Source: Megasphaera sp. NM10 | GTDB lineage: Bacteria; Bacillota; Negativicutes; Veillonellales; Megasphaeraceae | Length of the DNA: 33,016 bases | Reading direction: 5' to 3' | Assembly: GCF_000417505.1 (NCBI RefSeq) | Contig: NZ_APHY01000036.1 | Span: 1-33,016, forward strand | Part shown: positions 8,460 through 33,016 of the stretch, piece by piece | How positions within the stretch are numbered: the first letter of the stretch is position 1 | How the letters are laid out: each line of letters opens with the position of its first letter | Made by a program: the position numbers and the translations under genes | Notes under the pieces: model-generated | The model's database searches: none | What the model saw: the letters and a program-made list of their open reading frames with translations, nothing else | What the model was told of the DNA's origin: nothing

Positions 8460-8503
8460 GAAATTTGATGATAATTTACAATAAAGGTAACGTACCATAC
8501 TGG

Positions 8504-8533
8504 TTTACAAAAAGGCACTTTTTCAATTACAAT
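8504..8533 (+). promoter_or_regulatory. promoter for the 8572 gene
   Basis: -35 TTTACA at 8504-8509 and -10 TACAAT at 8528-8533, 18-bp spacer. The predicted start of transcription near 8540 argues for translation from 8572 rather than 8539. Confidence 0.5.
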
Positions 8534-8571
8534 AAAAGATGACATTTAGGAAAAGGAGGCGATGCCTTTTT

Positions 8572-9003
8572 ATGAAGACTTCATCGACGCGGCGCAGTCT
8601 GATTGCCTTGGCGCGCCGTATTTTACATTCCTATTTCGCCTCATCCAGCCTGGACCTGCTCTTGGCTTATCTGGCGCCCGATGTCGTCTGGCTCGGCGCC
8701 GGCCGGGAAATGAGTGCCGAAGGGCGGCAGCGGGTCGGCGATATCTTCCGGGCCAGTGCCAACCGGCTCATCCCCTGTGTCATGAGCCAGGAAACGTACC
8801 GGGCCAAGGAACTGACGGAGGACTTGTGGCTGGTTGAGGGTTCGTGTCAGCTGAGGGCCGACTCGTCGTATAAGGTCTATCTGCAGGAATATCAGCGCTG
8901 TACCTTCATTTTCACCGTCAAGAAGCGCTTGTCCCAGCTCTATCACCGCTTCGGCGTGACCAATCGGACCAGCCTGATCCATAAATTCAAGGGCAAGGCC
9001 TGA
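8572..9003 (+). pseudogene. SnoaL-like/LuxR-type regulator with middle deleted
   Basis: The first ~110 residues (DVVWLGAG, EMSAEGRQ, LWLVEGSCQL, EYQRCTFIF) resemble an NTF2/SnoaL-like sensory domain seen at the front of signalling proteins of gut Firmicutes. Directly after RCTFIF the protein switches to KKRLSQLYHRFGVTNRTSLI, which reads as only the second half of a LuxR-type helix-turn-helix. The first half of that domain and the end of the sensory domain are missing although the frame is open, which points to an in-frame internal deletion. The AAAGGAGG site is 13 bp before this ATG; an ATG at 8562 is in another frame and gives an unconvincing protein. It may instead be a genuine short protein of unknown role. 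Confidence 0.5.
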
Positions 9004-9013
9004 AGGCTGTCTG

Positions 9014-9042
9014 TTGCGGCAGGCGGCGATGGCCTGTATAAT
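9014..9042 (+). promoter_or_regulatory. promoter of the GNAT gene
   Basis: -35 TTGCGG at 9014-9019 and -10 TATAAT at 9037-9042, exactly 17 bp apart. Confidence 0.7.
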
Positions 9043-9070
9043 GGAGAGAAAATAGATAGGAAAGAGGAGA

Positions 9071-9565
9071 TTGTTTATAAAAATCAGGACGGCTACGATG
9101 GCCGATTTAGCCGCTGTGGCGGCTGTAGAGAAAGCCTGCTTCCCGCCGGCAGAAGCGGCGACGGCCGATGAATTCCGGGACCGCCTGGCCCATTATGCGG
9201 CCCATTTCTGGCTGCTCTTCGATGAAAAGGGGGACCTCGTGTCCTTCGTCGACGGCATGGTGACGGATGAACGGGATTTGACTGACGCCATGTACGCTCA
9301 GGCGGCCATGCATGACGAAAAGGGGGCCTGGCAGATGATTTTCGGCGTCAATACCCTGCCTTCGTGCCGCCGCCATGGCTATGCCGGGAAGCTCCTGGAA
9401 GCGGCCATTGCCGACGCCAGGCAGCAGGGACGACAGGGCCTGGTCCTGACCTGCAAAGACAAGCTCCTCCCGTACTATGCGAAATTCGGCTTCCAGAACG
9501 AAGGCATCAGCGCCTCCGTCCACGGCGGCGTCACATGGTACCAGATGCGGCTGACTTTTGAGTAG
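9071..9565 (+). CDS. GNAT-family N-acetyltransferase
   Basis: Acetyl-CoA-dependent acetyltransferase of unknown substrate. The N terminus IRTATMADLAAVAAVEKACFP is the usual first strand and helix of the fold. The acetyl-CoA loop is modified, CRRHGYAGKLLEAAI (residues ~98-112, R-x-x-G-Y-A/G type), and the C-terminal LPYYAKFGFQNEG is typical. The start is taken as TTG at 9071 because the family-conserved IKIRTA follows at once and AGGAAAG lies 7-10 bp upstream; ATG 9098 would cut into the first strand. The gene has its own promoter and stands alone. Confidence 0.8.
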   Translation: MFIKIRTATMADLAAVAAVEKACFPPAEAATADEFRDRLAHYAAHFWLLFDEKGDLVSFVDGMVTDERDLTDAMYAQAAMHDEKGAWQMIFGVNTLPSCRRHGYAGKLLEAAIADARQQGRQGLVLTCKDKLLPYYAKFGFQNEGISASVHGGVTWYQMRLTFE

Positions 9566-9624
9566 CCGTCGTACGAGCCCCTGCAATATAAATACAAATT
9601 TTAAATTTGTCCCTCCTGCTGTAT

Positions 9625-9708
9625 AGTTTGTAGTGCAGAGTTTGTAGAGGATGGTTTTAAATTTAAAGCCTTCACTAAAAACTACAAACTGCAAACTTAA
9701 TACTCAAC
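9625..9708. repeat. heptad composite repeat, copy A
   Basis: Left arm in 7-bp steps (AGTTTGT, AGTGCAG, AGTTTGT, AGAGGAT), core GGTTTTAAATTTAAAGCC at 9653-9670, then right-arm steps ACTAAAA, ACTACAA, ACTGCAA, ACTTAAT, ACTCAAC without phase loss. The right arm runs straight into a terminator hairpin. See the copies at 12061, 12226, 19606 and 26556. Confidence 0.85.
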
Positions 9709-9742
9709 AAGGGCTGTCGCATGTGCGACAAGCCCTTGTTTA
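9706..9742. terminator. terminator after the GNAT gene
   Basis: AACAAGGGCTGTCGCA pairs with TGCGACAAGCCCTTGTT (one bulged A) around a two-base loop, followed by T. The A-rich left side makes it potentially bidirectional. Confidence 0.85.
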
Positions 9743-10127: not shown

Positions 10128-10165
10128 AAAGGGATTAAACGAAATCATAACGTTTAATCTCTTTT
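10128..10165 (+). terminator. terminator of the small membrane protein gene
   Basis: AAAGGGATTAAACG pairs with CGTTTAATCTCTTTT (one G-U pair), followed by T residues. Confidence 0.85.
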
Positions 10166-10215
10166 TTATTCTTAAAAAATATAAGTAAAACGCCGACGAT
10201 GACTTAATAGTATAT

Positions 10216-10244
10216 TTGACAGGCCCTTTTAATCGTGTTATACC
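10216..10244 (+). promoter_or_regulatory. promoter of cstA
   Basis: -35 TTGACA at 10216-10221 and -10 TATACC at 10239-10244, 17-bp spacer. The start of transcription near 10251 leaves a leader of about 109 nt. Confidence 0.75.
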
Positions 10245-10252
10245 GTACACAT

Positions 10253-10353
10253 GCGCAGAAGCGAAGATGTATTTTATGGTATTCATTTTTATTTACCTTA
10301 ACATCTTCAGCTCCTCCGCACAGATCCATTTGTTTTTTTGGAGTATAGGAGGA
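10253..10353 (+). promoter_or_regulatory. structured cstA leader, possible translational switch
   Basis: The 5' segment 10253-10270 pairs with 10301-10319 (core GAAGATGT with ACATCTTC, extended outward by AGC/GCT, AG/CT and GCG/CGC). The 3' strand contains TCCTCC (10312-10317), which is perfectly complementary to GGAGGA of the ribosome site (10348-10353). The two helices exclude each other, so forming the first would free the ribosome site. A 16-codon reading frame (10251-10301) coincides with the 5' arm and loop. No known riboswitch class is recognised. Confidence 0.4.
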
Positions 10354-10359
10354 ATTTCT

Positions 10360-11883
10360 ATGAATGGTGTTGTTTTAGTCACTTGTGCTATCGTCATCCT
10401 GGCGGTAGCCTATCGGTTCTATGGCAAGTGGCTGGCTAAGACGTGGGGCATCGACCCCAACGCCCTGACGCCGGCCCATCGCCTGGAAGATGGCCAGGAT
10501 TATACGCCGTCTTCTAAGTTCACGGTCTTTGCCAATCAGTTCTCGTCCATCACCGGTGCCGGCCCCGTCACGGGCCCGATCATCGCCGCTGCCTACGGCT
10601 GGCTGCCGGCTTTTTTATGGCTCATGATCGGCGGCGTCTTCTTCGGTGCCGTCCAGGACTTCGCAGCCCTCTACGCATCCATGAAGAATGACGGCAAATC
10701 CATGGGCGTCCTCATCGAAAAGTACATCGGCACGACGGGCCGCCGCCTGTTCCTGCTCTTCTGCTGGGTCTTCAGCCTGCTGGTCATCGCCGCTTTCGGC
10801 GATATCGTCGCTACGACGTTCAATGGCTTTGCCAAGGATGGATCCATGGTCCTGCCCAATGCGGCTGCCGCTTCCATTTCCATGCTGTTCATCTTCGTCG
10901 CCATTGCCTTTGGCCTGTTCATCAAGAAGTTCAATCCCAGTGAAAAAGTACGCTTCGTCATCGCCATCGTCCTCTTGATCGCCATGCTCTATGTCGGCAT
11001 CGACCTGCCGATTTACCTGGACCGCATGACCTGGCTGTACATCATCTTCGCTTATATTTTCTTTGCTTCCATCATGCCCATGTGGCTCCTGAAACAGCCG
11101 CGCGACTACATCAGCGCCTTCCTGCTGCTCATGATGATCGCCGGCGGCGTCATCGGTATCTTCATCGCCCAGCCGACGCTGAATATGCCGGCCTTCACGT
11201 CCTTCTCGGTCGGCGGCAAGGATTTGTTCCCAATCCTGTTCATCACCATCGCCTGCGGTGCCGTTTCCGGCTTCCACAGCCTCGTTTCGTCCGGTACGTC
11301 GTCGAAGACCCTGGATAAGGAACAGGATTCGGTCTTTGTCGGCTACGGTTCCATGTGCGTCGAATCGGTCTTAGGCGTCGTTTCCCTGGTCATCGCCTGC
11401 GCTGCCGCTTCCAACGGCCACGTCGCTTCGGGCACGCCGTTCCAGATCTTCTCCGGCGCCGTCGCTGGTTTCTTCACCATGTTCGGCCTGTCCCAGACGG
11501 CAGCTGCCTGCATCATGACCATGTGCGTATCGGCCCTGGCCCTGACGACCCTCGATGCCGTCGGCCGTATCGGCCGTATGTCCTTCCAGGAACTGTTCAG
11601 CGTCGATGAAGGACAGGAAATGAACACGATCCAGAAAATCTGCGTCAATAAGTATTTTGCTACGGTCATCACCTTGTTCTTCGGCTTCCTGCTCTGCTTA
11701 GGCGGCTACATGAACATCTGGCCTCTCTTCGGCTCGGCCAACCAGCTGCTGTCGGCCATGGTCCTCATCTGCCTGACGGTCTTCCTCAAGACGACAGGCC
11801 GCAAGAGCTTCATGCTCTACATCCCCATGGTCGTCATGTTCTGCGTTACCATGACAGCCCTCGTCGAATCGGCTTATGCCTGA
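10360..11883 (+). CDS. cstA: CstA-family carbon starvation / pyruvate transporter, C terminus frameshifted
   Basis: Multi-spanning inner-membrane transporter; characterised members take up pyruvate or peptides. Typical signatures are YRFYGKWLAK, the conserved GAGPVTGPI, FGAVQDFAALYASM, and SGFHSLVSSGTSSKTL, with about a dozen hydrophobic segments. The start at 10360 has GGAGGAATTTCT before it; the frame extends upstream to the -35 box, but no translated start is possible there. The frame closes with TGA at 11881-11883, yet the next 170 bp in the -1 frame encode a good final membrane segment (see 11883-12056), so one base appears lost near 11880 and the native protein would be about 565 residues. 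Confidence 0.9.
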   Translation: MNGVVLVTCAIVILAVAYRFYGKWLAKTWGIDPNALTPAHRLEDGQDYTPSSKFTVFANQFSSITGAGPVTGPIIAAAYGWLPAFLWLMIGGVFFGAVQDFAALYASMKNDGKSMGVLIEKYIGTTGRRLFLLFCWVFSLLVIAAFGDIVATTFNGFAKDGSMVLPNAAAASISMLFIFVAIAFGLFIKKFNPSEKVRFVIAIVLLIAMLYVGIDLPIYLDRMTWLYIIFAYIFFASIMPMWLLKQPRDYISAFLLLMMIAGGVIGIFIAQPTLNMPAFTSFSVGGKDLFPILFITIACGAVSGFHSLVSSGTSSKTLDKEQDSVFVGYGSMCVESVLGVVSLVIACAAASNGHVASGTPFQIFSGAVAGFFTMFGLSQTAAACIMTMCVSALALTTLDAVGRIGRMSFQELFSVDEGQEMNTIQKICVNKYFATVITLFFGFLLCLGGYMNIWPLFGSANQLLSAMVLICLTVFLKTTGRKSFMLYIPMVVMFCVTMTALVESAYA

Positions 11884-12623: not shown

Positions 12624-12780
12624 TATTCATCCAGAGCAGCTGAGGGACTGGCCCGATGACGCTGCGGCAACCTACGTAGGTAAGGTGCCAATTCCAGCAG
12701 GAAATAACCTGGCAGATGAAGTCATGGGCATACGTCTATTTATAGCGCCATCTGCATCAGCAGGCGGCGCTTTTCTTTTT
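12624..12780 (+). promoter_or_regulatory. SAM-I (S-box) riboswitch with terminator platform
   Basis: The S-box signature is clear: GAGGGACTGGCCCGATGA (12642-12659), CGGCAACC (12665-12672) and GGTGCCAATTCC (12684-12695). P1 is TTCATC (12626-12631) with GATGAA (12715-12720). The expression platform is a terminator, GCGCC/GGCGC and CTGC/GCAG (12745-12770) followed by a T tract (12771-12780). The antiterminator is visible too: GCAGATG (12712-12718), part of P1, is fully complementary to CATCTGC (12749-12755) in the terminator. High SAM should keep P1 and stop transcription, so the sulfate locus would be on when SAM is low. Confidence 0.93.
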
Positions 12781-12800: not shown

Positions 12801-13732
12801 ATGGAGCATGTGGCAACGTATTTGACAGAGCTGATTGGCAACACGCCGCTCTTGGAACTGACTCATTGGCAGGCTCGGCACGGCCTCAAGGCCCGCGTCC
12901 TGGCCAAGCTGGAGTACATGAACCCCTTGGGCAGCGTCAAGGACCGCGTAGCGGCAGCCATGATCGACGAAGGGATACGGCAGGGGAAGATCAACAAAGA
13001 TACGGTCATCATCGAACCGACGAGCGGCAATACCGGCATCGGCCTGGCCCTGGTCGCCGCCGTGAAGGGCCTGCACCTGATCTTGACCATGCCCGATACG
13101 ATGAGCCTGGAACGGCGTAAGATCGTGTCGGCCCTGGGGGCGGAAATCGTGCTGACACCGGGCATCGAGGGGATGCGCGGCAGCATCGGCAAAGCCGAAG
13201 AATTGAGGGATTCTTACGGCAATGCTTCATTCCCCAGCAGTTCGACAATCCGGCCAATCCGGCCATCCACCGCCAGACGACGGCGGAAGAAATCTGGCGC
13301 GACACGGACGGCAAGGTAGATATCTTCATTTCGTCCGTCGGCACAGGCGGCACCATCACCGGTACGGCCCAGGGCCTGAAAGGCCATAAGCCGGACGTCC
13401 AGATCGTCGCCGTCGAGCCGAAAGATTCCGCCGTCCTGCACGGCGGCCGGCCGGGCCCGCACGCCATTCAGGGGATTGGCGCCGGGTTCATCCCGAAAGT
13501 TTTGGATATATCTCTCGTAGATGATGTGATCGACGTATCCAATGAGGACGCCTACGGCCGGGCCAGGGAAGTCGCCAAGACCGACGGCCTTTTGGTCGGC
13601 ATTTCGTCCGGTGCGTCGCTGCAGGCGGCCCTGGAACTGGCCAGCCGGCCGGAAAACGAAGGCAAGACTATCGTCGTCCTCCTGCCGGATGGCGGCGAAC
13701 GCTATTTATCGACGGCTTTATTTGAGGGGTAA
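12801..13732 (+). pseudogene. cysK: cysteine synthase (O-acetylserine sulfhydrylase), one-base frameshift
   Basis: PLP enzyme joining sulfide with O-acetylserine to form cysteine, the last step of the pathway encoded downstream. The first part has the family start LIGNTPLLEL, the PLP lysine in NPLGSVKDRVAAAMI and the substrate loop EPTSGNTGIGLAL. At about 13222 the frame breaks: restoring one T in GCTTCATTCCCC gives [14 protein letters not shown], and the new frame continues through [17 protein letters not shown] and GISSGAS to the stop at 13730-13732. The restored length of about 310 residues is normal. AGGAG lies 9 bp before the start. It is either a sequencing error or a recent mutation; without correction the product would lack the second half. 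Confidence 0.88.
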
Positions 13733-32379: not shown

Positions 32380-33016
32380 TCAGGATAGCCTTATTCTCAA
32401 AGGGCTGTCCAAAAGCCCCTTACACAGTCCCTCGAAATCGAAGTTCTGCTTACTTTTACGAAGTATGTTGGCGGCGCCATTGATATCGGCATTAGCCGTC
32501 CTGCCGTTGGCGAAACGGTACAGGCCGCGCCGGATTCGTTTCCCACTGAACGTTCCTGTATAGGGTGTATCCGGCTGGTATACGGGAATGTTGTCCAAAT
32601 CCAGGCAGCTGGCCTGAGAGGTATACGATTCTTCCTGTTCCAGATAGGTTATCCCATAGCGTTCACACAGGTGTTTCAAGGTACTACGAAGATAGCTCAG
32701 ACTGATTTGAGTGAAATGCTGATTCATCACTTTGCCCAGCTTTAGTCCTCGTTTAAAATCGCGATTATAGCCGCAAACAATGGTACCTATCTGATGGTCA
32801 ATGCAGAAATTAACAATGTAACGGGCTGTCTTGCAAAGGATGTCCTTCATCCGGAAATTGCGTTTCTTCGCTAACTGACAGAGCTGGTTCGTCGTCTTCC
32901 GGCCCTGCTTGGCGGCAATGCTTTGGAGTCTGGCTTTGCGTTTGTTCCAATACTGGTTAATAGATTTGAGTTTACGACCGTCCATGAGGAACGACGTCCC
33001 CGTATTGGTAACGCAC
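32380..33016 (-). CDS. tnpB: TnpB, RNA-guided nuclease / IS605 OrfB family (5'-partial)
   Basis: The frame is open to the right edge (CVTNTGTSFLMDGRKLKSINQYWNKR), so the N-terminal part including the first RuvC aspartate is outside. Visible are the bridge/RuvC segment (ARYIVNFCIDHQIGTIVCGYN), the second acidic residue in LEQEESYTSQAS, and the final RuvC Asp in NADINGAANILRK. The usual zinc finger with two CxxC pairs is replaced by ASCLDLDNIPVYQP...FSGKRIRRGLYR, a known variant of the family. The remaining catalytic residues look intact. The stop is at 32380-32382, followed by a small CCTGA/TCAGG hairpin. Confidence 0.85.
   Translation of the reverse strand, partial: CVTNTGTSFLMDGRKLKSINQYWNKRKARLQSIAAKQGRKTTNQLCQLAKKRNFRMKDILCKTARYIVNFCIDHQIGTIVCGYNRDFKRGLKLGKVMNQHFTQISLSYLRSTLKHLCERYGITYLEQEESYTSQASCLDLDNIPVYQPDTPYTGTFSGKRIRRGLYRFANGRTANADINGAANILRKSKQNFDFEGLCKGLLDSPLRIRLS

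Follow-up and report, generated by a model that had tools for sequence, protein, structure and literature searches.

The 5' end of a Megasphaera cstA leader and the Shine-Dalgarno sequence as candidate competitors for a single strand

Examination of the region upstream of cstA in Megasphaera sp. NM10 (33,016 nucleotides of contig NZ_APHY01000036.1, all of which is here called the window; genome of 2.61 Mb in 174 contigs) reveals a leader in which a single strand is complementary both to the beginning of the predicted transcript and to the Shine-Dalgarno sequence (SD) of the gene. Both helices are present in the sequence, their combined layout is above what chance delivers, and it recurs in a sister species. 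We tentatively propose that the leader is a fast-evolving, cis-acting translational control element built on rivalry between the transcript's 5' end and the SD for a single strand, a possibility that we favor while holding it with less than confidence. As such it would be a plausible member of a familiar class of translational elements.

The longer of the two helices (helix A) joins 10253-10270 (GCGCAGAAGCGAAGATGT) to 10301-10319 through 16 pairs, interrupted by two 1x1 mismatches and one bulged A. The shorter (helix B) is formed by TCCTCC at 10312-10317, the exact reverse complement of the SD GGAGGA at 10348-10353, which itself ends 6 nt 5' of the ATG at 10360 (Table 1). An earlier sequence-only reading had described both pairings as well as a 16-codon frame ending at 10301; the coordinates of the pairings proved exact and the frame is present. 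Its description of the helices as mutually exclusive holds for their outer part, where 10253-10262 and the SD conflict over 10310-10319, but not for the inner 8 bp (10263-10270 with 10301-10308), which fit both folds. Inspection by eye shows no conserved ligand-binding core in the leader, and the earlier statement that no known riboswitch class is recognizable agrees with an Rfam scan of the window, in which the leader gives no hit at or above a gathering score. The only element of the window to attain that score is a SAM riboswitch (RF00162, 84.3 bits, 12624-12722), which precedes a cysK-like frame at 12801 in a neighborhood of sulfur and methionine genes (gene names assigned by eye). Frames near the window ends, at 17-1341 and 32380-32985, resemble by eye a transposase pair of the IS3 type and a TnpB-like protein.

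Table 1. Features of the cstA locus in the window, and leader elements of cstA orthologs listed by locus.
Feature	Position or loci	Strand	Basis
Terminator-like hairpin and T-run, ending the upstream unit	10130..10169	+	by eye; largely kept in the sister species
Promoter TTGACA (10216-10221), 17 nt, TATACC (10239-10244)	10216..10244	+	by eye; hexamers identical in the sister species
16-codon frame, ATG 10251 to TAA 10299-10301	10251..10301	+	sequence; probably not functional
Outer 5' arm of helix A; rivals the SD for the anti-SD strand	10253..10262	+	predicted folds; shuffles 0/2000
Inner 5' arm of helix A; fits both folds	10263..10270	+	8/8 pairs with 10301-10308
Inner 3' arm of helix A	10301..10308	+	predicted folds
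Shared strand: outer 3' arm of helix A, holding anti-SD TCCTCC 10312-10317	10310..10319	+	sequence, predicted folds; helix B 6/6 in the sister species
Shine-Dalgarno GGAGGA	10348..10353	+	sequence
cstA CDS, 507 aa	10360..11883	+	PF02554 505 bits vs cut-off 27; open frame
T-box cores upstream of cstA	L034, L041-L048, L051, L052, L054, L060, L066, L099 and others		
Terminator motif upstream of cstA, Selenomonas-like relatives (name inferred)	L049, L055, L056, L058, L059, L061, L062, L063, L086, L089, L090, L115, L120, L125		

Against the NCBI model of the E. coli-type CstA, the encoded protein scores 267 bits, far below the cut-off of 1188. Since the unit upstream appears to be ended by a terminator-like hairpin (stem about 10130-10141/10151-10162, loop of 9 nt, by eye; absent from the list of an automated scan whose loop limit is 8), cstA probably has its own promoter, and a start of transcription is predicted near 10250-10252. 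The sequence-only reading had let the 16-codon frame begin at this start. Its ATG at 10251 does lie there, but the start itself depends on a promoter recognized by eye, the pair TTGACA-17-TATACC at 10216-10244 not being among the calls of a consensus promoter scan.

The minimum-energy fold of 10249-10335 is the helix A hairpin, at -22.3 kcal/mol, where shuffled sequences average -10.25 (z -4.41; 0/200 shuffles as low), while the longer stretch 10249-10380 gives a weaker signal (z -2.12; 9/200 shuffles as low). A perfect 6-nt anti-SD, taken alone, is weak evidence, because it occurs in 228 of 3000 shuffles. The statistic used for the combination of a 5'-terminal arm with an anti-SD strand asks for pairing of the first 22 nt to a strand including an anti-SD, and it was designed after the NM10 leader had been seen. 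It is matched by 0/2000 shuffles of the NM10 leader and by 3/2000 of the sister leader (4/2000 with a later start for the latter); an earlier version gave 1/3000 and 8/3000, respectively. The same test was applied to orthologs from the bacterial class, for which 111 leaders were collected (113 places minus three, G350, G096 and G098, plus L034). In the 64 of these that could be anchored on a promoter, the other 47 having no promoter call, no SD or a leader below 40 nt, a value of 0/200 shuffles is seen only in NM10 and its sister (ranks 1 and 2), with 4/64 leaders at <=0.01 and 6/64 at <=0.05. The layout thus looks specific to this pair and not general for cstA.

All 15 genomes of the genus encode CstA relatives, and this particular ortholog is found in two of them, NM10 and the sister species (G002), the others being 27-41% identical; ortholog counts are 2/17 in the family at 1e-120, and 2/61 in the order and 111/380 in the class at 1e-130. 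The two proteins differ at 3/507 residues. Between the two loci, 54/271 fourfold sites of the gene differ as against 45/93 aligned sites of the leader (10251-10345, with 15 further gap columns), which indicates that the leader evolves faster than silent sites. The promoter region (10130-10244) differs at 7/115 sites, so that the boundary of divergence falls sharply at the predicted transcription start. Gene order around cstA is common to both genomes on either side; just upstream, the place of about 1.3 kb in the window (8465-9734) is taken in G002 by about 15 kb (2234473-2249597), most of which is different sequence.

Despite this divergence, a strand complementary to the SD is present in both leaders, exact in NM10 and with 6/6 pairs in its sister, where helix B has undergone one two-sided change (U-A to A-U) and one change from C-G to U-G. 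Slid versions of helix B pair in 42-67% of cells as against 100% for the true register; a shuffle control (246/500) is uninformative with two rows. Helix A keeps 9/16 pairs (alignment A1) or 7/16 (A3) at aligned columns, with no two-sided change, and the sister arm meets the anti-SD strand in a shifted register, in which helix A re-forms. Compensatory changes, which the sequence-only reading had named as a check, are hence seen once in helix B and not in helix A, at the aligned columns of two sequences. As judged from these alignments, the pattern is one of preservation of layout and not of classical covariation, in a comparison of only two leaders that share ancestry. The translational-switch layout suggested by the earlier reading is supported to this extent: arm and anti-SD strand co-occur beyond the shuffles, and helix B is intact in one divergent relative.

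A search of viral contigs for further cstA relatives found none. Genome contigs yielded five further loci; the one close relative among them is L034 (Megamonas sp. UBA1799, 70%), whose 300-nt leader is identical to that of L046. A regulon sharing the promoter region was considered and dropped: the 2 full matches both lie upstream of cstA, and the rest are short and weak (E >=0.14). At the two loci inspected, L172 and L176, such weak matches lie within an open frame or at its beginning.

In the folding model, the ensemble energy of the fold with helix B relative to that with helix A (folds B and A) is better by 1.0 kcal/mol when the 3' end is at 10359, worse by 0.4 at 10371, better by 2.9 at 10389 and worse by 0.8 at 10419. 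The difference never exceeds 2.9 kcal/mol across the four 3' ends, so the model predicts a near-bistable leader RNA. In transcripts that do not yet include the SD, the arm is predicted to hold the shared strand with a probability of 0.78-0.79 in NM10 and 0.43 in the sister species; in the latter the value is 0.00-0.42 once the SD has been transcribed. The predicted unpaired fraction of the SD differs modestly between fold A (0.26-0.35) and fold B (0.14). The SD has further pairing partners in fold A, including a U-run, and helix A retains its inner 8 bp in both folds. With the 3' end at 10389, masking the anti-SD raises the modeled unpaired fraction to 0.35, and removal of the first 12 nt shifts it just from 0.21 to 0.17, which disfavors a strong equilibrium effect of the 5' end. 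Among the 109 of the 111 ortholog leaders that were ranked, modeled SD accessibility in NM10 (0.17) is the tenth lowest, against a median of 0.54 and a value of 0.29 in the sister species; by this model it is low but not extreme.

In light of these features, we propose a mechanism whose transcription start, folding order, direction of effect and regulatory character we infer. The 5' arm, made up of the transcript's first dozen nucleotides, would vie with the SD for the CU-rich strand 10310-10319. Helix A, presumably forming first during transcription, would keep this shared strand off the SD; should the arm be released, whether by refolding, by an RNA or protein acting in trans or because the 5' end is lost, helix B would then cover the SD, and translation would drop. 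Removal or occupation of the arm should on this scheme close the SD, an effect that is weak in the equilibrium model. A bolder version, which we regard as quite improbable, makes the extreme 5' end an intramolecular anti-anti-SD that licenses translation: only fresh, unprocessed transcripts with an intact end would be well translated, loss of the end would close the SD, and the element would evolve so fast that its layout outlasts the change of nearly half its letters.

Several other readings bear on the same observations, foremost among them a plain hairpin and chance. The leader might simply carry a 5'-terminal stabilizing hairpin that shields the mRNA from decay, with the anti-SD match a by-product and no switching involved. 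A predicted start no more than about 3 nt away from the stem, the ease with which shuffles produce a 6-nt anti-SD (228/3000) and the inner 8 bp kept in both folds would suit such a hairpin, but the anti-SD pairing is retained 6/6 in the sister species with a two-sided change, and the arm there again meets an anti-SD strand; we consider this account unlikely, though one to be taken seriously. A leader that diverges freely, its helices meaningless, would likewise be in keeping with the 45/93 changed sites that exceed the fourfold 54/271, with a helix A that is not conserved pair by pair (7-9/16) and with a z of just -2.12 for the longer fold. The 0/2000 and 3/2000 shuffles and the ranking of NM10 and its sister as 1 and 2 of 64 leaders speak against such a chance origin, which we hold to be unlikely without dismissing it.

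Control through a leader peptide, in which ribosomes on the 16-codon frame would disrupt helix A and so set the fold, had been raised in the sequence-only reading, and the frame from ATG 10251 to TAA 10301 does span the 5' arm. However, this ATG stands at or beside the predicted first nucleotide, and by eye the sister leader has neither ATG nor GTG near its 5' end and no counterpart frame, so that the suggestion appears very improbable. The same reading also named an RNA thermometer, whereby heat would melt helix B and open the SD, which indeed lies inside a predicted helix; yet predicted SD accessibility is flat between 25 and 50 C (0.07-0.09 in NM10, where the modeled SD stays closed throughout, and 0.19-0.27 in the sister species), and none of the thermometer families in Rfam attains its gathering score within the window. 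We regard a thermometer as extremely unlikely. Repression of the CsrA type, with a protein on GGA sites covering the SD, has a precedent in the E. coli cstA leader, which a passage of PMC2784878 cites as regulated by CsrA, and GGA words do occur in the SD region here. This alternative was rejected, as no CsrA was found in the NM10 genome (PF02599, matched in 0/1 genome, versus 3/14 control genomes), and we assign it next to no weight.

The translational expression platforms of riboswitches operate by competition between anti-SD and anti-anti-SD strands. The proposed competition in the cstA leader resembles these in having a strand with two alternative partners, an upstream arm and the SD, and differs in that no conserved ligand core is seen, the arm is at the extreme 5' end and there is no Rfam match at the leader. 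With the E. coli cstA/CsrA system it would share translational control at the cstA SD, though that system is protein-mediated and NM10 lacks a CsrA match. In Bacillus subtilis, ncr22 is described in a passage of PMC2784878 as a predicted trans-acting RNA that blocks the cstA SD by pairing; the predicted SD blocking by RNA is common to both, whereas the Megasphaera element would act in cis. Two further kinds of leader, T-boxes and a terminator motif (TCGCAAYGGNGCGA), precede cstA orthologs within the class. T-boxes are RNA leaders of the same gene family but sense tRNA, and the Megasphaera leader has no T-box match (no RF00230 match in the window and no core by regular expression before L002 or L003). 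The terminator motif, likewise an RNA leader of orthologous cstA, consists of a conserved hairpin and a terminator; homology with it was rejected, since R1, the model of the motif, matches neither the window nor the sister locus.

T-box cores precede cstA in 23/111 class leaders, 22 found by regular expression (with L034 and L046 sharing one leader) and L099 by Rfam. RF00230 was detected at E <=0.001 in 15/20 loci scanned, its gathering score being passed only by L099; the regular-expression cases L081, L083, L084, L087, L088, L096, L098 and L109 lie outside that scan. In most leaders readable by eye, with L041 as an exception, the specifier is AUC (Ile), on what we take to be the usual T-box anatomy. 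This prevalence of an isoleucine specifier hints that this CstA branch may move branched-chain amino acids, related acids or peptides. By eye, L081, L083, L084, L087, L088 and L096 have the word ATGATCGCGACATG in common, located after the T-box terminator and ahead of the cstA SD. A T-box has been noted before cstA1 of Bacillus methanolicus, in a passage of PMC4342826 whose authors doubt that it belongs to cstA1.

The terminator motif (allowing <=2 mismatches) lies upstream of the SD in 14/111 class leaders. Its consensus fold comprises a short hairpin and a terminator stem with 16 pairs, 7 of which show a two-sided change, and the terminator loop looks by eye complementary to the hairpin (UCGCA/UGCGA), making a possible candidate antiterminator. 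A model built from the 14 motifs, searched under strict filters that weak copies elsewhere may escape, matches 15 of the 189 genomes of their family at E <=0.01, namely the 14 and a weak case in G343 (E 0.009). All matches lie just upstream of cstA orthologs, and four further weak ones are opposite-strand echoes. Among the literature matches listed, no paper deals with this motif or with the Megasphaera cstA leader.

Together these observations suggest that orthologous cstA genes of one bacterial class carry unrelated RNA leaders, namely T-boxes, the terminator motif and the putative SD competition described here. The two Megasphaera leader variants, about half of whose sites differ while the promoters and coding starts are almost the same, offer a clean natural pair for comparison. 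RNA control in this transporter family is known best from E. coli, and the competition, if real, would add to it a translational element without an obvious ligand.
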